A stretch of 64,000 bases of DNA. Origin: Sphingomonas aerophila. Its GTDB lineage: Bacteria > Pseudomonadota > Alphaproteobacteria > Sphingomonadales > Sphingomonadaceae. The translations under genes and the position numbers were made by a program. Each line of letters begins with the position of its first letter. Positions within the stretch are counted from its first letter, which is position 1. The notes beneath the pieces were generated by a model that saw nothing but the letters and a program-made list of their open reading frames with translations, was not told the origin of the DNA and made no database searches. The DNA lies in contig NZ_JACIJK010000008.1 in assembly GCF_014199305.1 (NCBI RefSeq), positions 62,001-126,000 on the forward strand, written 5' to 3'. Below, one piece after another: positions 3,188 to 41,792 of this stretch.

Positions 3188-5170
3188 ATGGCCGACGACT
3201 TGTTCGCTAATCCCGCCCCGCCCCCTTCCAACTATGACGCATCGTCCATCGAAGTTCTCGAGGGGCTGGAGCCGGTTCGGCGGCGCCCGGGCATGTATGT
3301 CGGCGGCACAGATGAGCGCGCGCTCCATCACCTTGCGGCCGAGGTGCTCGACAATGCCATGGACGAAGCCGTCGCAGGCCATGCTACGCGCATCGAGGTG
3401 CTGCTGGAGCCGGGCAATCGGCTGACCATCACCGACAACGGGCGCGGCATGCCAATCGACCCGCACCCCAAGTTCCCGGACAAGTCGGCGCTGGAGGTAA
3501 TCCTGTCGATGCTGCATTCGGGCGGCAAGTTTTCGGGCAAAGCTTATGCGACATCCGGCGGCCTGCACGGCGTAGGCGTTTCTGTGGTGAACGCCTTGTC
3601 CTCAGACACGGTTGTGGAGGTCGCGCGCGACCGGCAGCTATATCGCCAGCGCTTCAGCCGGGGCGAGACGCTGGGGCCGCTGGAGAATGTCGGGGCGGCA
3701 CCCAATCGGCGTGGCACGTCGGTATCGTTCACCCCCGACACGGAGATCTTCGGGCCAGAGCTCGGCTTCAAGCCCCAGCGCTTGTACAAGCTCGTTCGGT
3801 CGAAGGCGTATCTGTTTGCCGGCGTGGAGATACGCTGGCGCTGCGCCCCCGAGCTCGTGGCGGACACCGACGTGCCGCCAGAGGCCGTGTTCCAGTTTCC
3901 GGGCGGCCTGGCCGATCACCTGCGCGAACAAATCGGCTCGCGTGAGTGCGCCACCGCGGATTTCTTTGCAGGACGTCAGGACTTTCCGGGCGATCAGGGC
4001 AGGGTGGAATGGGCCGTGGCCTGGCCGCTGTGGTCGGACGGCAGCTATAGCTGGTACTGCAACACCATTCCGACGCCTGACGGCGGGACGCACGAGCAGG
4101 GTCTGCGTCAGGCCTTGGTTCGGGGCCTGCGCCAGTTTGGTGAGCTGGTCGGGCAGAAGAAGTCGAAAGACATCACGGCGGACGACGTCGTGGTCGGCGC
4201 GGAGCTGATGCTGTCCGTGTTCATTCGCGAGCCTCAATTCCAGAGCCAGACAAAGGACCGCCTGACCAGCCCGGAAGCAGCGGGTCTGGTTGAGCGGGCG
4301 ATGCGCGACCATTTCGACCATTGGCTGGGCCACAACATGGACCGGGGCAAGGCGTTGCTCGGCTATGTGCTGGACCGCATGGACGACCGCCTGCGCCGCA
4401 AGCAGGAACGCGAGGTCAAGCGCAAGACGGCGACCAGCGCGCGCAAGCTGCGTCTTCCGGGCAAGCTGACCGACTGTTCGGCCGACGATCCCACAGGCAC
4501 CGAGTTGTTTATCGTAGAGGGTGACTCGGCCGGTGGCTCGGCCAAGCAGGCGCGCGACCGCAAGACACAAGCGATCCTGCCGATCCGCGGAAAGATCCTC
4601 AACGTCGCATCAGCCACGTCCGCCAAGATAGTGGCAAACCAGGAAATTGCTGATCTGATCCAGGCGCTGGGGTGCGGCACCCGCAAGGAATGCCGGCCGG
4701 ACACTCTTCGCTACGAGCGGATCGTCATCATGACGGACGCCGACGTCGACGGCGCTCACATTGCGACGCTGCTGATGACGTTCTTTTTCCAGGAAATGCC
4801 GGATCTGGTGCGTCGTGGGCACCTGTATCTGGCGCAACCACCGTTATATCGACTGACCGCCGGCGCGAAGTCGCTCTACGCCCGCGACGACGCACATCGT
4901 GCCGAGCTGGAGCGCACGGCTTTCAAGGGCAAGAAGGTCGAGGTTTCGCGCTTCAAGGGACTAGGGGAGATGAACCCGCAGCAATTGCGCGAAACCACCA
5001 TGGACCCGGCGACCCGGGGCATGATCCGGATTACGCTGCCCCAGGAATATGAGGAGCGGGCGGGCGTCAAGGATCTGGTCGACCGGCTGATGGGCAATAA
5101 CCCTGCGCACCGCTTCGCCTTTATCCAGGAGAATGCTGCACGGCTGGAGGACGAGGCGATCGACGCGTGA
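3188..5170 (+). CDS. parE: DNA topoisomerase IV subunit B
   Basis: A 660-residue type IIA topoisomerase ATPase subunit, which decatenates daughter chromosomes together with ParC. The GHKL ATPase part shows VLDNAMDEA, DNGRGMP and GGLHGVGVSVVNALS. The TOPRIM part starts at EGDSAGGSAKQ (about residue 440) with ILPIRGKILNV and the metal-binding DADVDGAH. The length and the lack of the gyrase-type C-terminal insertion fit ParE rather than GyrB (about 800 residues). The ATG at 3188 follows a purine-rich aaggcgg. It stands alone, with argD 225 bases downstream. Confidence 0.93.
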   Translation: MADDLFANPAPPPSNYDASSIEVLEGLEPVRRRPGMYVGGTDERALHHLAAEVLDNAMDEAVAGHATRIEVLLEPGNRLTITDNGRGMPIDPHPKFPDKSALEVILSMLHSGGKFSGKAYATSGGLHGVGVSVVNALSSDTVVEVARDRQLYRQRFSRGETLGPLENVGAAPNRRGTSVSFTPDTEIFGPELGFKPQRLYKLVRSKAYLFAGVEIRWRCAPELVADTDVPPEAVFQFPGGLADHLREQIGSRECATADFFAGRQDFPGDQGRVEWAVAWPLWSDGSYSWYCNTIPTPDGGTHEQGLRQALVRGLRQFGELVGQKKSKDITADDVVVGAELMLSVFIREPQFQSQTKDRLTSPEAAGLVERAMRDHFDHWLGHNMDRGKALLGYVLDRMDDRLRRKQEREVKRKTATSARKLRLPGKLTDCSADDPTGTELFIVEGDSAGGSAKQARDRKTQAILPIRGKILNVASATSAKIVANQEIADLIQALGCGTRKECRPDTLRYERIVIMTDADVDGAHIATLLMTFFFQEMPDLVRRGHLYLAQPPLYRLTAGAKSLYARDDAHRAELERTAFKGKKVEVSRFKGLGEMNPQQLRETTMDPATRGMIRITLPQEYEERAGVKDLVDRLMGNNPAHRFAFIQENAARLEDEAIDA

Positions 5171-32698: not shown

Positions 32699-32735
32699 AT
32701 AGCATCGCCTGCGGGGAAATGTGTCGGGGGGCAAC

Positions 32736-33509
32736 ATGGCCACGCTTGCACCAACGCGTCAGTCGATCTTTCGCGGCAGTCACCGCTTTTACCTTATCAG
32801 TGCTTTGGTCATGGCGGGGATCAACGTCGTCGCGTTTGCGTTTGCGAACGCGATGGGGCGGTCTAGCTTTGGCGCTCCCTTGATCGTCCATGCTCATGCG
32901 CTGGTCTTTTTCGGATGGGTGACGATCTACGTCGCCCAGAACGTCCTGGCGTCAAGCGGCCAATTGCACCTGCATCGCAAGCTGGGCTGGATCGCCGCGG
33001 GCTGGATGGTGGCGATGGTCCTGCTCGGGACGATCGTCACCGTGCGAATGGTCAGGGGAGGGCACGCGCCTTTCTTTTTCCAACCGGGCTATTTCCTAAT
33101 CATGAACCCGGTGGGCGTGCTGACTTTTGCCGGCCTGTCGAGTTGGGCCATCGTGCTGCGGCGGCGGACAGAGTGGCACAAAAGGTTACATTTCTGCGGC
33201 ATGGCCATGCTGATGGGGCCGTCGCTGGGCCGGCTGCTGCCCGCGCCCTTTCTCATCCCCTATGTCGGGCCCAGCCTGTTCGCGGTCATGCTACTGTTTC
33301 CGCTGGCCGGCGTGGTGGCCGATCTTCGCCGGACCGGGCGGGTGCATCCCGCATGGGCGTGGGGCATTGCCGTCATGGTAGCGGCGCAGTTGCTGATCCA
33401 GGTCACCCCTTCAACGCCAATCGGCCTGGCGATCTATTCTGCCGCGACCGCCGGCTCGCCGGGCGAGGCGCTTCTTCCGCTCGCCTATCCGCCGTTCCCT
33501 CCTCTCTGA
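32736..33509 (+). CDS. Multi-pass membrane protein of unknown function
   Basis: A 257-residue protein with about seven membrane segments. Several His residues lie at helix ends (LIVHAHALVFFGWV, LHLHRKLGW, EWHKRLHF), a pattern seen in haem- or metal-binding membrane proteins. The arrangement LHRKLG...WHKRLHF resembles two related halves. No family is assigned with confidence. The ATG at 32736 follows cgggggg; a GTG at 32721 is an alternative. Converges with the Tad operon. Confidence 0.7.
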   Translation: MATLAPTRQSIFRGSHRFYLISALVMAGINVVAFAFANAMGRSSFGAPLIVHAHALVFFGWVTIYVAQNVLASSGQLHLHRKLGWIAAGWMVAMVLLGTIVTVRMVRGGHAPFFFQPGYFLIMNPVGVLTFAGLSSWAIVLRRRTEWHKRLHFCGMAMLMGPSLGRLLPAPFLIPYVGPSLFAVMLLFPLAGVVADLRRTGRVHPAWAWGIAVMVAAQLLIQVTPSTPIGLAIYSAATAGSPGEALLPLAYPPFPPL

Positions 33510-33578: not shown

Positions 33579-34574
33579 CTAGTTGCTGGGGTGCAGGAAG
33601 CTGTCGTTGATCGAGCAGGCTGCCGGACCCAGGATGACCACGAACAGGGTCGGTAGAATGAACAGGATCAGCGGCACAGTCATGATGGCGGGCAGCCGTG
33701 CGGCCTTCTCCTCGGCCCGCATCATTCGCTCATTCCGGAATTCGGCCGACAGAACACGCAATGCGGACGCCAGCGGTGTGCCGTACTTCTCCGTCTGGAT
33801 CATGGTGGTGACCACGCCTTTGACGGCGTCCAGGTCGACCCGCTGCGCCAGGTTCTCGAAGGCCTGGCGTCGCTCGGTCAGGAAGCCCAGTTCGATCGCG
33901 GTCAGGGTGAACTCGTCGCCAAGTTCCGGGTACGCGCGCCCCAGTTCGCGTGCGACACGGTGGAACGCCGCGTCGACGGTCAAACCCGCCTCGGCGCAGA
34001 TTACCAGCAGGTCCAGCGCATCGGGCAGACCCTTGCGAATTGCGTCCGAGCGTTTTTTGATCTTGTTCTTGAGGAAGATGTCGGGCGCCTTGTAGGACAG
34101 GATGAAAGACCCCGCGACGATCCCGTATTTCTTGATTGGTGACCATTCGGCCCAGCCGTCGGTGCCATAAACCCAGAACAGCATGATGCCGCCGAACACG
34201 ATCGGCAGGACCAGCCGTCCAAAGATCACGGCCACCGCCCAGTCCTTGGACCGGATGCCGGCCTGAAGCAGCTTTTGCTGGGCGACCTTCAGCTGGCTGT
34301 CCTGCAAAACCTTCAAGCCCGACAGCAGCGACCGCATCCTGTCCGCCGTGTCGTTTCGCTGAACCAGCTTGGCGCGACGCTTGGTGGAGGCAGTGATGCC
34401 TGCCTTCAGCTGTTCGCGGCGGTCGTTCAGCGCTTTCACGCGCTTCGTCATGGGATCGCGCACGGTGGTGGCCGCGTAAATCGCGAGCATCACGGCAAAG
34501 GCGGCGACCCCGGACAGCAGGGTCGCGACCCAGAGAACGTCGACGCCGAGCAGGGTGGGGTGGGGAGCTTCCAT
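33579..34574 (-). CDS. tadC: Tad/Cpa pilus inner-membrane platform protein TadC
   Basis: A 331-residue type II secretion F-domain protein. Membrane helices occur near residues 12-34, 120-140, 150-165 and 300-322. The F domain (LPDALDLLVICAEAGLTVDAAFHRVARELG, then EFRNERMMRAEEKAARLPAIMTVPLILFILP) is well preserved. With TadB it forms the platform for Flp pilus assembly. Last gene of the minus-strand pilus operon, 11 bases after tadB. Confidence 0.92.
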   Translation of the reverse strand: MEAPHPTLLGVDVLWVATLLSGVAAFAVMLAIYAATTVRDPMTKRVKALNDRREQLKAGITASTKRRAKLVQRNDTADRMRSLLSGLKVLQDSQLKVAQQKLLQAGIRSKDWAVAVIFGRLVLPIVFGGIMLFWVYGTDGWAEWSPIKKYGIVAGSFILSYKAPDIFLKNKIKKRSDAIRKGLPDALDLLVICAEAGLTVDAAFHRVARELGRAYPELGDEFTLTAIELGFLTERRQAFENLAQRVDLDAVKGVVTTMIQTEKYGTPLASALRVLSAEFRNERMMRAEEKAARLPAIMTVPLILFILPTLFVVILGPAACSINDSFLHPSN

Positions 34575-34585
34575 CGGTGGGTGCC

Positions 34586-35560
34586 TTAGATCTCGAAGCT
34601 GACCATTTTGGCCATGATAGCGGCGCCGATGCCCATCCAGATCAGGCCGCCGATGCCGGCGACGATCAGCCGCTGGTCGATGAAGAAGTTCTGCATGTAG
34701 TCGCCGTTGATCATGTAGATCATGCTGAACACGATAAAGGGCAGGGAGCCGACGATGTAGGCGGACGCCTTTGACTCAGACGACATCGCCTTGATCTTGA
34801 GCTTCATCTGTCCGCGCTGGCGCAGGACAGTCGCCAGGTTTGCGAGCGTCTCGGCCAGGTTGCCGCCCGTTTCACGCTGAATCGCGATGGTGATCACGAA
34901 GAACTGAAATTCCGGCGTGCCAAGGCGGTCGGCGGTTTCCTGTAGCGCGGCGTCCATCGATCGGCCGATCTTCATCTTGTCGGCTACGGCCCGGAATTCC
35001 TCGCCTACTGGCCCGTCGACCTCGGCTGCGACCACCGACATGGTTTCAGTGATCGGAAGACCCGATCGCAGGCCGCGAACGAGTAACTCGATGGCGTCCG
35101 GAAACTTCGTCGTGAACTTTCCAATGCGTTTCTTGATGAAGAATCCGACTGCCAGGTGCGGAATGCCGCCGCCCACCGCTGCGCCAGCGAGCAGGGCGAG
35201 GGCGAGCGGCATGCCCTTGATGGTCAGCAGCAGCGCGACGACCAACGCGATGCCCGCAGTCGCCATGCCATATTGCCCCACGGTCCATGACTTACCGGTC
35301 ATGGCCAGCCGCTTCGCGAGCAAGGCCTTGTTGGGCAGCAATCTGCCGAACGCGAGGTCGACCTTGGTATCGCGCGAGTTGGTGATCCGGCGAAGCTGCA
35401 TGTCGGCCAGCGACACAGGCGTAACGCTGTGGCGTTCGCGAACGGCGCCAAGCCGGCGATTGCCGGCCCGCTGCGCGTTGGGGCCGGCAAAGGCGAAGAC
35501 GATCATGCCGAGCACCGTTACCCCGCCCAGCGCGACAATCATCAGCGGCACAATGTTCAT
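34586..35560 (-). CDS. tadB: Tad/Cpa pilus inner-membrane platform protein TadB
   Basis: A 324-residue F-domain protein with an N-terminal helix (VPLMIVALGGVTVLGMIVFAF) and the core FPDAIELLVRGLRSGLPITETMSVVAAEVDGPVGEEF, then RETGGNLAETLANLATVLRQRGQMKLKIKAMSSESKASA. It partners TadC. Directly upstream one expects cpaF, but cpaE lies only 57 bases away. Confidence 0.92.
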   Translation of the reverse strand: MNIVPLMIVALGGVTVLGMIVFAFAGPNAQRAGNRRLGAVRERHSVTPVSLADMQLRRITNSRDTKVDLAFGRLLPNKALLAKRLAMTGKSWTVGQYGMATAGIALVVALLLTIKGMPLALALLAGAAVGGGIPHLAVGFFIKKRIGKFTTKFPDAIELLVRGLRSGLPITETMSVVAAEVDGPVGEEFRAVADKMKIGRSMDAALQETADRLGTPEFQFFVITIAIQRETGGNLAETLANLATVLRQRGQMKLKIKAMSSESKASAYIVGSLPFIVFSMIYMINGDYMQNFFIDQRLIVAGIGGLIWMGIGAAIMAKMVSFEI

Positions 35561-35588
35561 GTCCTGGCCCGTTCCCTCACGATGCTGC

Positions 35589-35611
35589 GCCGCCCTGATG
35601 GCCAGGGCGGC
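35589..35611 (-). other. GC-rich hairpin in the cpaE-tadB gap
   Basis: gccgccctg pairs perfectly with cagggcggc around a 5-base loop. It sits between cpaE and tadB with no T-run. It may be an mRNA-processing or stabilising hairpin that separates expression of the upstream and downstream pilus genes. Confidence 0.45.
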
Positions 35612-35617
35612 GGGCCG

Positions 35618-36910
35618 TCACTTCTTGTTACCGCGACCGGGCATCATCGACTTGAAGTCGAGCTTGCCCATTAGCGACTGACCCTTCTTGCCGGCGCCCT
35701 TCTTGTTCGAGGCCAGGTCTTCGCTTGCGGTATCTGCGACGCCGACCAGCTTCTGCGCGAGCTCCACCAGCGGCGCTGCGGTCTTGGAGTTCTTGCCGGC
35801 CTCGGATAAAGGCTTGCCAAGCTTGGCCGCCTGCGCTGCGAGCTTCTGATCAAAGGGGACAGTGTAATCGAGCTTGCGCTCGATGGAGCCCTCAAAGTCC
35901 TTGCGCGTGATCTCCAGCTGGCCGCCCGGATGCAGCTTGTTTGCCAGCGTGAAGACGTGAGTGCCCGGCGCGTTCGATTTGAGCCAAGACAGGATGCGGA
36001 TCGTATCGCGCGCTGCCGCAAGGGTCAGCTCGGTAACGACGATCGCAACCTGGATGTCGCCGATCAGGTGCGGATGCTGAACCAGCATGGACCGCGGCAG
36101 GTCAACCACGGTCGCCTCAAAGGCCGCCCGCATCTCCTCCTGCAACTGGTAAAAGGCAGATCCGTCCGTGACCAATGGCGCGTTGATTGGCGCCTCGGCG
36201 CTCAGCACCGCCAGCTTCTCCGAAGCCTTCACCATCGCGCGCTCGATAAAAAGTCCGTCGATGCGGCTCGGGTTCTCGATCGCGTCGGTCAGGCCGCGAC
36301 CCGGCTCCAGATCGAGCGCCAGCGCGCCCGTGCCGAAGTGCACGTCGAGGTCCAGGAGCGCCGTGGAGCGCCCTTCCTTTTCGCTCATGAGCCAGGCGAG
36401 GGAACTCGCCACGGTCGAAGCGCCGACCCCGCCGCGGGTACCGATCACGGCCACTGCGACATGGGGTCGCTCCACCGCCTGCTCCGTGTGCTTGGGCGCA
36501 TTCAGCATGGCCTGCGCGTGGCTGAAGGATTCGCGCAACACGTCGGGATGAAGTGGTTTCAGAAGGTAATCCTGTATGCCGCTCGCCAGAAGGTCGCGGT
36601 ACAGGCGCACGTCGTTGACTTGGCCGGCGGCGATCACCACCGTGCCGGGCTCGCAGACTTCGGCCAGGCCGTTGATGTCGTTCAGAGGATCGCCGCTTTC
36701 GGCCAGGTCAACGAACAGGATCTGCGGGCTGGCAGAGACCGACAGGGTCTGGACCGCATTGCGCAAGCCACCCTTGTTGATCTTCTCTGCCGACCAGCCA
36801 AGCTCCGTCGCGATCGGGCGCAGCGCCTCAACGGTGGTGTCGTCGCACACGAACGCCACAAAAGGTTCGCGATGGGCAACGCCGGCAGGTTTCCAGGGTG
36901 CGTTCATCAC
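35618..36910 (-). CDS. cpaE: Pilus assembly ATPase-like protein CpaE/TadZ
   Basis: A 430-residue protein with an N-terminal receiver-like domain (about residues 15-135, ending DYLLKPLHPDVLRE) and a MinD/ParA-type P-loop domain. The deviant Walker A is GTRGGVGASTVASSLAWLM near residue 155, and LLDLDVHFGTGALALDLEPGRGL follows. TadZ-type proteins position the Tad machine at the cell pole. The ATG overlaps the cpaD stop by four bases. The C-terminus is rich in Lys and Gly. Confidence 0.92.
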   Translation of the reverse strand: MMNAPWKPAGVAHREPFVAFVCDDTTVEALRPIATELGWSAEKINKGGLRNAVQTLSVSASPQILFVDLAESGDPLNDINGLAEVCEPGTVVIAAGQVNDVRLYRDLLASGIQDYLLKPLHPDVLRESFSHAQAMLNAPKHTEQAVERPHVAVAVIGTRGGVGASTVASSLAWLMSEKEGRSTALLDLDVHFGTGALALDLEPGRGLTDAIENPSRIDGLFIERAMVKASEKLAVLSAEAPINAPLVTDGSAFYQLQEEMRAAFEATVVDLPRSMLVQHPHLIGDIQVAIVVTELTLAAARDTIRILSWLKSNAPGTHVFTLANKLHPGGQLEITRKDFEGSIERKLDYTVPFDQKLAAQAAKLGKPLSEAGKNSKTAAPLVELAQKLVGVADTASEDLASNKKGAGKKGQSLMGKLDFKSMMPGRGNKK

Positions 36911-37545
36911 TTACCTCCCGCGTTCTCGGTCTTCACCGTGTTGCCACCACCGCCGGTAGGCGTGGCCTTTCGATATGCATCAATCGCGCGGTAGCCGGTC
37001 GCGGCGTCGTAATTGCCCGAGGACTGGCCACGGACGAGATCGTTGGGGCTGGCGACCATGGCGGCCAGATTGCTGTTGCTCGCACAGCCGAAGTTGGAGG
37101 AGGTATGCTGGTCGAAGTCGCGACTGGAGTTGCGCGACCAGTCCGGGCATCCCGGTACGCCGGCGCGCATGCGGCTGACCACCACCCGAACCGTGCCGGG
37201 GCTGACCGTGGCGGCCGTAATTGGCGCCTCGTCGGACAGCAGCAGGCCATAGCTGGCAACGACCGTTGACACCTGTTCGCGCGCGGTCAGCGCGTCGCCT
37301 GCGGGATCGTCAACCGCGACATGGTCGCCATAGCCAAGCCGCATGGAGCCGAACCAGCCAGCCAGCCGCCGCGACTCACCGGCCGCGAGCTGGCCGCCGA
37401 CTGTGGACAGGTCGAGCAGGTAGTCGGAGCGCGAAATCACCGGCTGGTGAACGCTTTCCAGGCCCCGATTTTGCGTGCCGCCCGCACAACCTGCGAGCAG
37501 GACCGCCGGCAGGACCAGCAGGGGAAGGGACGTTTTCATCTTCAT
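36907..37545 (-). CDS. cpaD: Pilus assembly lipoprotein CpaD
   Basis: A 212-residue outer-membrane-associated lipoprotein with lipobox LLAGC (Cys near residue 18). Family traits include the C-terminal half VVVSRMRAGVPGCPDWSRNSS and SNFGCASNSNLAAMVASPNDLVRGQ. It accompanies the CpaC secretin. The first of two nearby ATGs (MKMKT) is chosen; a frame extension upstream to 37587 has no signal. Confidence 0.9.
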   Translation of the reverse strand: MKMKTSLPLLVLPAVLLAGCAGGTQNRGLESVHQPVISRSDYLLDLSTVGGQLAAGESRRLAGWFGSMRLGYGDHVAVDDPAGDALTAREQVSTVVASYGLLLSDEAPITAATVSPGTVRVVVSRMRAGVPGCPDWSRNSSRDFDQHTSSNFGCASNSNLAAMVASPNDLVRGQSSGNYDAATGYRAIDAYRKATPTGGGGNTVKTENAGGK

Positions 37546-37561
37546 CGTGATCTGGCCCCGA

Positions 37562-39217
37562 TCAGTTGGAGAAGCCGGGGGCGACAATCGGCGCTCCCTT
37601 GCGTGAGGTGTTGGGCGCCTTTTCGTCGCGACGCTTGTCGGCGGCGGGAACGGGCCGGGCCGGGGCGGCGGCGCCGGCTGCGACCGGCACGCCGGGTGTT
37701 GCCAGGGTCGGAACAGGTCGCCGCTCGCCGGTGGTGCCGCCGCCCAGCTGACCCCCGAACACGCGTTCGAAGTCCGTTGGCGCTTTCATTCCATCCGTTG
37801 GCAGGGCGATGTCCGACTGGTTGTCGACCGGCTTCACCAGGTACGGGGTGATGACGATCACCAGTTCGCTCTCGTTGCGCTGCCAGGCGTTGGACCGGAA
37901 CAGTGCGCCCAGAACTGGCACGTCGCCAATGCCGGGTGTCTTGTCGAAATTGTTCGCCTGCTGGTTCTGAAGCAGGCCGCCGATCATCATCGACTGGCCG
38001 GAGCCGAGCTCCAGCGTCGTTTCCGCACGACGGGTGGTGAGGCCTGGCACGCGCGTACCGCCCATCGTGATCGCGTTGGCGTAGTCGAGCTGGGACACCT
38101 CTGGCCGGACGCGCAGGGAGATGCGGCCATCGGAAAGCACGGTTGGCGTATAAGAAAGACTGACCCCGTACTGTTTGTACTCGACGGAGATCGAGCCCAG
38201 TCCCTGGCTGAGCGGAATCGGAACCTCGCCGCCGGCCAGGAACGTGCCAGTCTCACCCGACAGTGCGGTCAGGTTCGGGTTGGCCAGAATGGATACCTGA
38301 CCGGTGGTTTCGCCCAGATCGATCGCCGACAACAGGTCCAGGCCGAATACCTTGGTCAATGCGCCCAAAGTCGTGCGCTCAGCTCCTGGAGTCACATTGG
38401 TGCCGGGTTTCTGGATGATCTTGAGGGCGCTCTCATCGATAATGCCGCCAGGAAGATACTTGATTGACGTCGGATCAATCCCGTAGCCCTGAACCGCTGT
38501 GCCGACCCCTAAAGGAAGACCGCGATCCGTGGCGAAATAGCTGGCTGGAGAGCGGCTACCGCCAATCCCGAACTTGAACCCGCTAGTGCTGTCGATCGAC
38601 GTCATGTTCACGCCGATGTTCTTGGCGAAGCTGCGGCGAACCTCGGCGAAGCGGACTTGCAGGTTGACCTGCAAGGGCGTCGCGGTGCGCAGGCGAGAGA
38701 GGACTTTCGTTCCATCTCCGACATAGGCCTGGACCAGTCGCTCGGCCTCTGCGGCGTCCTGTGGAGCGGCAACGGTGCCGGTCAGCAGCACAAGCCCGTT
38801 CATCGGCGTGGCGATGATCCGCGCTTCCGGCATGGCGAGCCCCAGCATCGACCCGATCGAGTCGAGGTTCTGGCCGACCCGGACCGTAGCGGCATAGACG
38901 ACTTGGCCACCCTTGGTCGTCGCGCTTACCGTCGTCTCGCCAGACTTCTTGCCGAAGATATAGAGCTGGGTTGGCGAGCGAACCTGAACGTCGGCAACGT
39001 TGTCGTCGGCGACGAACAGGTCGCTCATCGGGCGGGCCAGCGTCACAAGTCGGCCGCGGCCGGTGTTGATCTGGACCAGCGGCGTGCCGGTTACGCTTGC
39101 CGTGCTGGCGGCTGCGGCGGCGGGCGCCGTCGGCCCGCCAGGTGCGGCGGCGACCAGCGCCGGCGCGGCAAGAGCCAGCGCGAGCGACAGCCCGGTCGTC
39201 ATGGTGCTAACACGCAT
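37562..39217 (-). CDS. cpaC: Pilus secretin CpaC/RcpA
   Basis: A 551-residue outer membrane secretin with a signal peptide (LSLALALAAPALVAAA). The N-terminal domain (TGRGRLVTLARPMSDLFVADDNVADVQVRSP) and BON-like region precede the secretin core, with EVPIPLSQGLGSISVEYKQYGVSLSYTPTV and VPVLGALFRSNAWQRNESELVIVITPYLV. It forms the channel for the Flp pilus. The start overlaps the cpaB stop by one base. Confidence 0.94.
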   Translation of the reverse strand: MRVSTMTTGLSLALALAAPALVAAAPGGPTAPAAAAASTASVTGTPLVQINTGRGRLVTLARPMSDLFVADDNVADVQVRSPTQLYIFGKKSGETTVSATTKGGQVVYAATVRVGQNLDSIGSMLGLAMPEARIIATPMNGLVLLTGTVAAPQDAAEAERLVQAYVGDGTKVLSRLRTATPLQVNLQVRFAEVRRSFAKNIGVNMTSIDSTSGFKFGIGGSRSPASYFATDRGLPLGVGTAVQGYGIDPTSIKYLPGGIIDESALKIIQKPGTNVTPGAERTTLGALTKVFGLDLLSAIDLGETTGQVSILANPNLTALSGETGTFLAGGEVPIPLSQGLGSISVEYKQYGVSLSYTPTVLSDGRISLRVRPEVSQLDYANAITMGGTRVPGLTTRRAETTLELGSGQSMMIGGLLQNQQANNFDKTPGIGDVPVLGALFRSNAWQRNESELVIVITPYLVKPVDNQSDIALPTDGMKAPTDFERVFGGQLGGGTTGERRPVPTLATPGVPVAAGAAAPARPVPAADKRRDEKAPNTSRKGAPIVAPGFSN

Positions 39218-40251
39218 CAGTTCTTACCCCCCACGGGAACCACGGTGATCGAATTACCGCGCGCGATCCGGACGACCGGGCCGATGGCGGGCGCGGTGCC
39301 GCCGGTGTTTGGAGCCGCTACGGGCGTCATCTGGCCGACCGAGCCGTTGTCGCCGCCCTTGCCCGGCACAGACCGGCGAGCGAAGCGCGACACGTCGGCG
39401 CCCGTGACAAAGGTCGAGTTGCCGGTCTGCGGCTGGCTTGCAAGCTGTGTCATCATGGCCTTCTCGGCCTTGGGATCTGCGCCTTCGGGCACCTTGATCG
39501 ACCCGGAGGCGATTGCCTGTTCCAGCTCGGACGAGTTGTCAGCGATCGACCGCAGCGATAGCGAAATGGTGCCGAGCTGCTGGGCGACGGCCACCTGCTC
39601 GGCGAGCTTGGGAGTCGCCTCGATGGTCACGGTGCCGTAAACCTGCACCTTGCTCTTGCCGTCCTCGCCTAGCGTGTTGTCGGTGCGCTGGTCGGTGGCG
39701 AGTACCCGGACGTTGCGCATGAAGGTTTCAGAAACCTTGAGCGGTGAACCGTCACCGCCGCCCGACACCGACTGGGTCAGGACCAGGTCGATCCGATCGC
39801 CAGGAAAGATGAACCCTGCCACGGCGTTCTGCTGCTGGACCGGGATGGTCACGGCGCGCATGCCCGGGCCGAGTGCGGCAGCCAGGAAGCCACGATCGCC
39901 GGGCTTTACCAGGGCACCCTGGGTCAGCGGCTGGCCCGCCGTCACCGCGAACCGAACCACCGTGCCCTGCAGCGACTTGAGGTCGGTCTTTTCCTTCAGG
40001 AAGTACGCTCCGTCGACCAGCTCCTTGGGCCAGGGCTGATATTTCAGCGCCGTGGCGTCCAGGATCGTGCCAACGGGCAGGGCGCGGGTGGCGACCAGCA
40101 CTTCAGGCCCGTCGATCGGCGGAGCGGCGACGACGCCGGCAGCCGCCGCCTGCGGTGCCGCGCTGCCGGCGATCAGCGTGCGCGCCATGAACGCGGTGAT
40201 GCCCGCGACGACAAGCGCCCCGACCAGGAGAAAGACCTTGCGAGTGTCCAT
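39217..40251 (-). CDS. cpaB: Flp pilus assembly protein CpaB
   Basis: A 344-residue protein with one N-terminal membrane helix (VFLLVGALVVAGITAFMA) followed by a SAF domain (VLVATRALPVGTILDATALKYQPWP) and the RcpC-type region with VTIPVQQQNAVAGFIFPGDRIDLVLT. It works in the periplasm alongside the secretin. 56 bases separate it from cpaA. Confidence 0.93.
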   Translation of the reverse strand: MDTRKVFLLVGALVVAGITAFMARTLIAGSAAPQAAAAGVVAAPPIDGPEVLVATRALPVGTILDATALKYQPWPKELVDGAYFLKEKTDLKSLQGTVVRFAVTAGQPLTQGALVKPGDRGFLAAALGPGMRAVTIPVQQQNAVAGFIFPGDRIDLVLTQSVSGGGDGSPLKVSETFMRNVRVLATDQRTDNTLGEDGKSKVQVYGTVTIEATPKLAEQVAVAQQLGTISLSLRSIADNSSELEQAIASGSIKVPEGADPKAEKAMMTQLASQPQTGNSTFVTGADVSRFARRSVPGKGGDNGSVGQMTPVAAPNTGGTAPAIGPVVRIARGNSITVVPVGGKN

Positions 40252-40307
40252 GCCTTAGTTGCCCCTGGGGCGCGCCCTGTGCGGCCCGGTTGCGTGAGCG
40301 TTAAGCA

Positions 40308-40781
40308 TCACGACAAGTGGTGAAGAATCGGTTCACGCATCGCGAGAAGCGCGGCGCAGGTGATGGCGACCCCGTATGGAACCTCGATCGGAGCCATCCG
40401 ACGCGCGACATATCGATGCGCGAGCATCAGGATCGTCAGCACGCCGCCGATGACCGACATGGCGATCAGCATCCACGACAGTGAGTCGAGCGGAAGCCAC
40501 AAGGCGAGCGCGCCGATCAGCTTTACGTCGCCGCCGCCCATCCATCCGGCCGCGAACACGCCGACGAACAATCCAAAGATGATCGTGCCCGTAACTAGCT
40601 GGAGGACCAGGTCCGGCCAAAGCGCCAGCCCTGACACCCACCACCAGGCAGGCGCTAGCAGCGCGATCGTCAGGTTCTTCGCGTTGGAGATGGTGCGCCC
40701 GCGCACGTCCTCGATCGCAGCCGCCAATAGCAGCGCGGCAAGGGTCGCGAGCAGCGCGACGGCCGGATTGTTCCACCCCAT
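40308..40781 (-). CDS. cpaA: Prepilin peptidase CpaA
   Basis: A 157-residue A24-family aspartic peptidase with about five membrane helices, cutting Flp prepilins. The two catalytic aspartates are in AAIEDVRGRTISN (near residue 24) and GGGDVKLIGAL (near residue 84). Start at 40781 (MGWNNP), as the upstream in-frame extension overlaps the divergent hydrolase. First gene of the operon; the pilin gene usually next to it is absent here. Confidence 0.92.
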   Translation of the reverse strand: MGWNNPAVALLATLAALLLAAAIEDVRGRTISNAKNLTIALLAPAWWWVSGLALWPDLVLQLVTGTIIFGLFVGVFAAGWMGGGDVKLIGALALWLPLDSLSWMLIAMSVIGGVLTILMLAHRYVARRMAPIEVPYGVAITCAALLAMREPILHHLS

Positions 40782-40832: not shown

Positions 40833-41792
40833 ATGAAGCAGGAGACTTCCATCAGCCCGGCTCCGCTGCGCGCCCTGCCACCTCAGGCGCGGGTGGCGGG
40901 CTGGCTCGCGCCCGATGGCTGGAGGCACCGCAGGTTCGACTGGCGGGCCGACGGGGCTGAGCGAGGACGGCTGTTGTTTCAGCCGGGACGGTCGGATGTA
41001 TTCGAGAAGTACCTGGACGAAATAGCCGAATTGCAGGCGGAAGGTTGGTCGGTAACGTCATTCGACTGGCGCGGGCAGGGCGGGTCCGGCCGGCTCGGCC
41101 GCGATCCCCGGGTCGGCCATGCTGACCGGTTCGATGCCATGGTGGACGATTTAGCCGGTTTCTGGCGAGCGTGGACGGCGGAGGGGGCGGGGCCGCGTGT
41201 CCTGCTGGGCCATTCAATGGGTGGTCACTTCGCGCTCCGGGCGCTGGCCGATAAGGTCATCGATCCCGATGCGGTGATCCTGTCGGCGCCGATGGTGCAG
41301 GTGCGCTCTCCGATTGGGGCGTGGGCCGGGGGCGTCCTCGCACGGCTGATGCTTCGACGGGGCGAGCCGACGCGCAGCGCCTGGCGGTGGAGCACCGATC
41401 CCGACTCGGTGGCACGCCGACGGCGTCGGCTGACCCTCGACAACAGCCGTGGGCAGGACGAGCGCTGGTGGCAGGTCCCAAACCCTGAACTGGAGTTGGG
41501 GCCGCCAAGTTGGGGCTGGGTGGTCGAAGCGTTCCGCGCAGGCGCGGTGCTGGCGCGTCATCCGGGGCTGGAACGGGTGACAGCGCCGGTGCTGATGCTG
41601 GTCGCGGACGGGGACAAGCTGGTCGACCCGCGGGCAGCACGGCGGGTGGCTGAACGCTTGCCCGATTGCGAGTTGGTCCGATTCGCCCCGAACGAGGCGG
41701 CGCACGAGGTGCTGCGGGAGGGCGACCCAGCGCGAGGTCGCGCCTTTGCGGCTATCCGATCGTTTCTGGACCGGCGAGTGCCACGCACATGA
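40833..41792 (+). CDS. Alpha/beta hydrolase (monoacylglycerol lipase/lysophospholipase type)
   Basis: A 319-residue serine hydrolase with the nucleophile elbow GHSMGG (Ser near residue 130), the strand SFDWRGQGGSG typical of the lysophospholipase subgroup, the acid in VADGDKLVDPRAA and the His in NEAAHEVLRE. No signal peptide, so cytoplasmic. The four-base ATGA overlap couples it to the flavoprotein gene downstream. Confidence 0.88.
   Translation: MKQETSISPAPLRALPPQARVAGWLAPDGWRHRRFDWRADGAERGRLLFQPGRSDVFEKYLDEIAELQAEGWSVTSFDWRGQGGSGRLGRDPRVGHADRFDAMVDDLAGFWRAWTAEGAGPRVLLGHSMGGHFALRALADKVIDPDAVILSAPMVQVRSPIGAWAGGVLARLMLRRGEPTRSAWRWSTDPDSVARRRRRLTLDNSRGQDERWWQVPNPELELGPPSWGWVVEAFRAGAVLARHPGLERVTAPVLMLVADGDKLVDPRAARRVAERLPDCELVRFAPNEAAHEVLREGDPARGRAFAAIRSFLDRRVPRT

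Follow-up and report, generated by a model that had tools for sequence, protein, structure and literature searches.

A Tad pilus operon without cpaF and a separately encoded CpaF of another clade in Sphingomonas aerophila and its family

The 64-kb stretch of Sphingomonas aerophila DNA analysed here, referred to as the window, corresponds to positions 62001-126000 of contig C8 in genome G000, a 4.0 Mb draft of 31 contigs. At 33579-40781 of its minus strand the genes cpaA-B-C-D-E-tadB-tadC of a Tad (Flp, type IVc) pilus were found with all seven reading frames open, and cpaF, the gene of the motor ATPase, was missing between cpaE and tadB. With high probability the operon is a part of a dispersed, complete Tad system, the motor of which is a CpaF encoded alone elsewhere in the genome (solo CpaF), and an older second cpaF took over before the copy of the operon was lost. 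Judged by its position in the trees, the solo CpaF is a member of a separate CpaF clade, distinct from a relocated operon gene. An operon lacking cpaF together with a separate cpaF is the lineage-normal layout of the family Sphingomonadaceae, since the solo-type cpaF was adjacent to tadB in 0 of the 65 family genomes holding both.

Motor and pilin genes outside the operon

An earlier note, made from the letters of the window, had considered that the ATPase might be encoded elsewhere and had proposed a genome-wide search for CpaF and flp genes. This search located CpaF on contig C6 and the Flp pilins on contig C4. No match to the T2SSE ATPase profile was obtained in the 64-kb window when the contigs of the genome were searched, and both matches in G000 were on C6. 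One of these, at G000:C6:32207-33742, is a full-length CpaF of 512 aa with intact key residues, and the other, at C6:218991, is of the GspE type. The pilus without a motor that the note had implied was not borne out, as the genome encodes a full-length CpaF. The best NCBIfam match of the solo CpaF was TadA (TIGR03819) with 339.5 bits, which is below the cut-off of 373. The alignment with the solved CpaF structure 9e24, which by its matching residue numbers appears to be that of C. crescentus, covered residues 29-510 with 466 bits and an E-value of 1.4e-138. The nearest named relative, among the best 80 of 585 matches, was a Sphingomonas protein at 92%.

Apart from one serine, the residues examined in the available passages of PMC11300603 were kept in the solo CpaF. 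The Walker A Lys, the Walker B Glu, both hinge glycines, the loop-8 Asp and the central-loop E-G-x-G, the roles of which were taken from these passages, were present in 34/34 aligned solo copies of the family; the lowered expression of the loop mutants is the authors' own caution in the same source. The central-loop Ser of C. crescentus was replaced by Gln in 26 of the 34 family solo copies and occurred in none of them, and just 2 of 26 operon CpaF copies contained it. Thirteen positions distinguished the family solo copies from the operon copies, one of which adjoins the loop-8 Asp (Glu to Gln). The loop-8 Asp was missing in two of the seven solo copies from other families (G124 and G096), and the central loop was also altered in G096. 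These changes would be compatible with a relaxed or different function in genomes that still have the operon copy. Across the family, the identities of the solo CpaF were mostly 75-88%, compared with mostly 53-65% for TadB.

The Flp pilins, 67 and 59 aa in length, were encoded at C4:256.9-257.4 kb, and TadE/TadG-type clusters were located at about 96-98.6 kb of C3, 331-334 kb of C4 and 329-332 kb of C2. Two Flp, five TadE and three TadG-type matches in G000 exceeded the cut-offs (ten proteins checked gene by gene). In the same profile search none of these families was matched in the window, all matches being on other contigs, which agrees with the note's remark that no pilin or TadE/F-type gene lies near the operon. 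A GGDEF diguanylate cyclase gene (L174:4252-5568, corresponding to about 94.3-95.6 kb of G000:C3) was observed upstream of the tadE/tadF/tadG-type cluster of that contig, on the same strand. Among the family and its relatives, Flp was matched in 31/31 genomes chosen. It lay apart from the operon in G005, G035, G047 and, in another family, G100, and just beside the operon in G085, G086, G082, G130 and G147. The pilins probably departed from the operon earlier than cpaF, because Flp is already unlinked in G005, G035 and G047, which keep the operon cpaF.

Distribution and phylogeny of CpaF

The family sample consisted of 79 genomes including G000, and the counts for family, order and class refer to the matches listed. 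The CpaF query was matched in 77/79 genomes, weaker VirB11-like proteins included, and the TadB query in 72/79. For the pairing, a CpaF of at least 56% identity and a main-type tadB were considered, and a CpaF was regarded as solo-type at an identity of at least 70%. CpaF was found in 69 genomes and main-type tadB in 67, all 67 of which carried both genes. Only G020 and G065 had CpaF without tadB, and ten genomes had neither. In G014, G016, G025, G058 and G067 the Tad operon detected was of a second, distant type, and the main type was not matched; in G003, G019, G033, G041 and G052 neither tadB nor a convincing cpaE was found. The missing tadB of G020 is probably an assembly gap, because its cpaE was present at 61%. 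An additional, distant Tad operon that includes a cpaF of about 50% identity is also present in several family genomes (L114, L115 and others).

The solo cpaF and tadB shared a contig in 36 of the 65 genomes, being 12.6 kb apart in G024 and otherwise 52 kb to 2.1 Mb apart. A CpaF of lower identity was situated beside tadB in G010 and G047. Four family members (G005, G035, G047 and G051) retain cpaF between cpaE and tadB; G005, G035 and G051 carry both copies, G047 the operon copy only, and most family genomes the solo copy only. The order sample comprised 60 genomes, 44 of these from other families and 40 of the latter with a CpaF-grade match. With adjacency defined as at most 700 bases, cpaF adjoined tadB in 39 of the 40; in the sole non-adjacent case, G091, the copy shown is solo-type, and the contig carrying the operon breaks off immediately upstream of tadB. 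In the class sample (57 genomes), cpaF was adjacent to tadB in 24/24 genomes of other orders with a CpaF-grade match. Unlinked cpaF copies were present in 8 of the 40 other-family genomes, seven of which also hold an operon copy, G091 showing the unlinked one only. A ninth, in G085 (L135:6320-7779), is split over two reading frames and contains a stop, and the operon copy of G085 is full-length and stop-free. The operon of G080 (L121, G080:C58) contains a tadC with in-frame stops in the matched stretch.

The earlier note had also suggested that cpaF was lost from an otherwise intact locus. Historically this is probably correct, given the position beside tadB in 39/40 genomes of other families, the four family members retaining the gene there and the different clade of the solo copy. 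It had named as grounds for dismissal an arrangement shared by relatives with cpaF at a second conserved locus. This proved largely true, as the shared arrangement was found (0/65 adjacent), except that the solo cpaF has no single conserved neighbourhood over the whole family.

The junction between cpaE and tadB was compared across the operons. In the window it consists of 57 bases (35561-35617), at the site of cpaF in the relatives that retain it. Between the cpaE stop and the beginning of the tadB match lay 6-145 bases in 22/23 family operons without cpaF (the window included), and the spacing was 1.7-2.1 kb in 18/19 operons retaining cpaF. The exceptions, G072 (a negative gap) and G147 (832), are script artefacts, as the extracted CpaE overran its stop codon; the cpaE and tadB matches of G072 are separated by 45 bases. 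In view of the close spacing in 22/23 operons lacking cpaF, the pattern of the window is not due to chance.

The first CpaF tree was calculated from 67 rows, comprising 34 solo copies from the family, seven from other families and 26 operon copies. Stops were read as gaps and thinly filled columns were dropped in the trees; one stop is present in the CpaF sequence of G157. The first tree included 14 of the 80 named loci, the unlinked copy of G098 is in no tree, and the broken G085 copy (L135) was left out of both CpaF trees. The family's 34 solo copies formed one clade, which united with the seven from other families at a support of 100/100, all 26 operon copies being on the opposite side. The operon copies of G005, G035, G047 and G051 formed a clade (99/93) joined by the operon copy of G080 (98/94), and the operon copy of G010 grouped with CpaF from other orders. 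The split between solo and operon copies persisted in a second tree of 43 rows, from which 24 more rows had been removed (nine long or distant, 15 near-duplicates) and in which the longest branches were gone and three other-family solo copies were left. In the CpaE tree, from which G010 was left out and in which the rows of G072 and G147 overrun the stop, G005 and 23 operons without cpaF were grouped together (24 members, 99/96), and G051+G047 and G035 fell outside this group. Within that tree the operons without cpaF formed one group (77/97).

The surroundings of the solo cpaF were examined in the best 80 of 585 matches, referred to as the named loci, mostly from Sphingomonas with Hephaestia, Stakelama and metagenome-assembled genomes. 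No tad core gene was found near the solo cpaF in any of the 80 loci over the flanks covered (at least 21 kb long in 63 of the loci), the window serving as the positive control. Over these flanks, the idea that the solo cpaF sits in a further tad locus was thereby rejected. In G005, G035 and five genomes of other families, ten genes neighbouring the solo copies gave peptidases, a TonB receptor, a weak integrase match, a hydantoinase, an N-acyltransferase and similar, with no tad gene among them. Across families, conserved neighbours of the solo cpaF were found only within small groups. At L009:4201-6398 the solo cpaF lies near the genes of the alpha and delta subunits of ATP synthase, and this alpha-subunit neighbour had matches in 64 of the 80 named loci. 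At L126:8210-9697 (G100) and L128:5013-6473 (G095) a shared gene adjoins the solo cpaF; it has DUF6538 and weak phage-integrase matches, tested in L126, which hints at a mobile acquisition.

Gene content of the window operon

The order cpaA-B-C-D-E-tadB-tadC, the absence of cpaF and the 57-base gap, as read in the earlier note, were confirmed by the list of open reading frames (ORFs), Pfam, NCBIfam and the sequence itself. All the genes are on the minus strand. The prepilin peptidase gene cpaA (40308-40781; Peptidase_A24, 1.3e-12) was assigned an ATG start at 40781, its longest ORF beginning with GTG at 40928. It is followed by cpaB/rcpC (39217-40251; RcpC, 3.2e-31, and TIGR03177 pilus_cpaB with 196 bits at a cut-off of 71), the gene of the outer-membrane secretin cpaC (37562-39217; Secretin, 6.6e-44, and T2SS-T3SS_pil_N, 2.6e-18) and that of the pilus lipoprotein cpaD (36907-37587; Pilus_CpaD, 1.3e-46, with TIGR02522 at 68 bits below the cut-off of 94). 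The gene cpaE/tadZ (35618-36910) encodes a MinD-like ATPase with a ParA match above the cut-off (4.7e-7); the models of MinD and of the Ssd/CpaE homologue scored below their cut-offs, and the position matches that of cpaE in the operons of relatives. The inner-membrane platform genes are tadB/cpaG (34586-35560; T2SSF, 6.5e-26) and tadC/cpaH (33579-34574; T2SSF, 2e-18).

The secretin, CpaB/RcpC and CpaD set of Tad/Flp (type IVc) systems is consequently present in the operon, as are the CpaE/TadZ MinD-like ATPase, recognised by its ParA match and its position as in relatives, and the tandem GspF-like platform pair, TadB and TadC being adjacent with T2SSF in each. The single-locus layout with CpaF/TadA inside the operon, which is usual for Tad systems and not defining, was absent from the window. 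Beyond cpaA a divergent hydrolase gene was observed (40833-41792), and tadC is adjoined by an ORF of 262 aa (32721-33509) that matched neither Pfam nor NCBIfam.

Origin of the solo motor and relation to known systems

The envelope, platform and motor families are the same as in the Tad pilus of Caulobacter crescentus with its motor CpaF and platforms CpaG/CpaH. In that bacterium cpaF stands within the operon, whereas here cpaF, flp and the tadE/G-type genes are located away from it. In the other families of Sphingomonadales and in G005, G035, G047 and G051 the order of the matched genes is the same, cpaA-B-C-D-E-(F)-tadB-tadC, and these operons differ by retaining cpaF between cpaE and tadB; the solo motor and these operon copies are of different CpaF clades. 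The genus Sphingopyxis is presumably of the same family as the window genome. By its gene numbers the same split is seen in Sphingopyxis granuli TFA, with cpaABCDEtadBC at 1907-1901, cpaF at 3775, Flp at 3632 and tadGE1E2 at 0765-0767, and in the RNA sequencing of that strain these separate Tad loci were all repressed in anoxia; the available passages give the expression without comment on the split or the origin of the motor (PMC6472365). In the open-licence literature, among the matches listed, this was the sole relevant report on cpaF or Tad pili in sphingomonads, and no report of motor replacement in sphingomonad Tad pili was found. According to the available passages of PMC6668835, Tad systems are almost exclusively encoded at a single locus, scattered loci being allowed by the models and very rare.

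In the proposed course, the window operon would provide the envelope and platform components (cpaA-E, tadB, tadC), the motor would come from G000:C6:32207-33742, Flp from C4 and the TadE/TadG-type proteins from C3, C4 and C2. The solo CpaF would form a hexamer under TadB/TadC and both extend and retract the pilus, as in Caulobacter; it probably drives this pilus. An older second cpaF of the other clade, derived from an old duplication or horizontal transfer, would have come to serve the Tad machine, and after a coexistence of both copies the operon copy would have been lost, probably once, along the family's main line.

A simple relocation, in which the operon's own cpaF moved elsewhere in the family's ancestor and no other CpaF took over, would also yield an operon without cpaF and one solo cpaF, as seen in most sampled family genomes. 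It is nevertheless very unlikely, as the family solo copies group apart from the family operon copies, G005, G035 and G051 carry both types, and solo relatives exist in other families that retain the operon copy. Holding the family solo copies with the family operon copies cost 132.6 log-likelihood units (p-AU 5.8e-5), and this topology was rejected by the approximately unbiased (AU) test, run post hoc; a wider one adding both G080 copies was likewise rejected. That the operon is decaying or motorless and the solo CpaF serves something else is less credible still. Neither the motor nor the pilins are at the operon locus, and in G065 the solo cpaF is accompanied by neither tadB nor a convincing cpaE, but the seven genes of the window are all open, CpaF and Flp are present in the genome, CpaF accompanies main-type tadB in 67/67 genomes and Flp was matched in all those chosen. 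The better conservation of the solo CpaF than of TadB and the joint repression of the Tad loci in Sphingopyxis (the available passages of PMC6472365) also speak against decay, and this explanation was rejected. A cpaF dropped or misplaced by misassembly could be suspected in a draft of 31 contigs, yet the same split occurs in the single-contig genomes G066 and G048 (both loci read) and in G083 of the same genus (operon read), by which an artefact is refuted, its probability being negligible.

Several observations weigh against the replacement of the operon motor by an older second cpaF. The AU test was chosen after the tree was seen, and the solo clades are on long branches, with treekit warnings. 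In both CpaF trees the solo clade is placed closer to operon copies from other orders than to the Sphingomonadales ones (86/92 and 94/81, unstarred); a simple duplication within the order would thereby be weakened, and horizontal transfer is therefore possible. The CpaE group of operons without cpaF appeared in 72% of the bootstrap trees, its support being 77/97 only, so that a single loss of the operon cpaF is likely rather than proven. In 29 of the 65 genomes the solo cpaF and tadB are on different contigs and their distance is unmeasurable there. The solo cpaF of G065, in an assembly of about 200 contigs and 97% completeness without tadB and with the best cpaE candidate at 4e-4, indicates that the gene may be retained where the operon is missing. 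G000 gave no shared promoter motif, CtrA-like words being absent from the upstream regions of cpaA, cpaF, two flp units and three tadE/G units; among the named cpaF upstream regions GTTAAC occurred in 8/75 and TTAACC in 13/75, counts without a proper intergenic control.

It is conceivable, although rather improbable, that the solo clade, as a second Tad motor evolved or acquired by Sphingomonadales, began as a specialised motor beside the operon CpaF, for example for retraction, like PilT beside PilB, and later became the sole bifunctional motor in most Sphingomonadaceae. If so, the lineages with the operon copy only, with both and with the solo copy only would be a natural series of pilus motor replacement.

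The layout itself is ordinary for the family, and the motor swap with the two-copy genomes is its noteworthy part. The family is an exception to the single-locus rule of Tad systems, its motor gene being separate and of another CpaF clade, and gene searches confined to the operon would label these pili motorless. The finding bears on how a motor may be swapped beneath a pilus machine, for which genomes with both copies exist. As a speculation, a separate motor gene might let the cell tune the level of the motor apart from the remaining machine.

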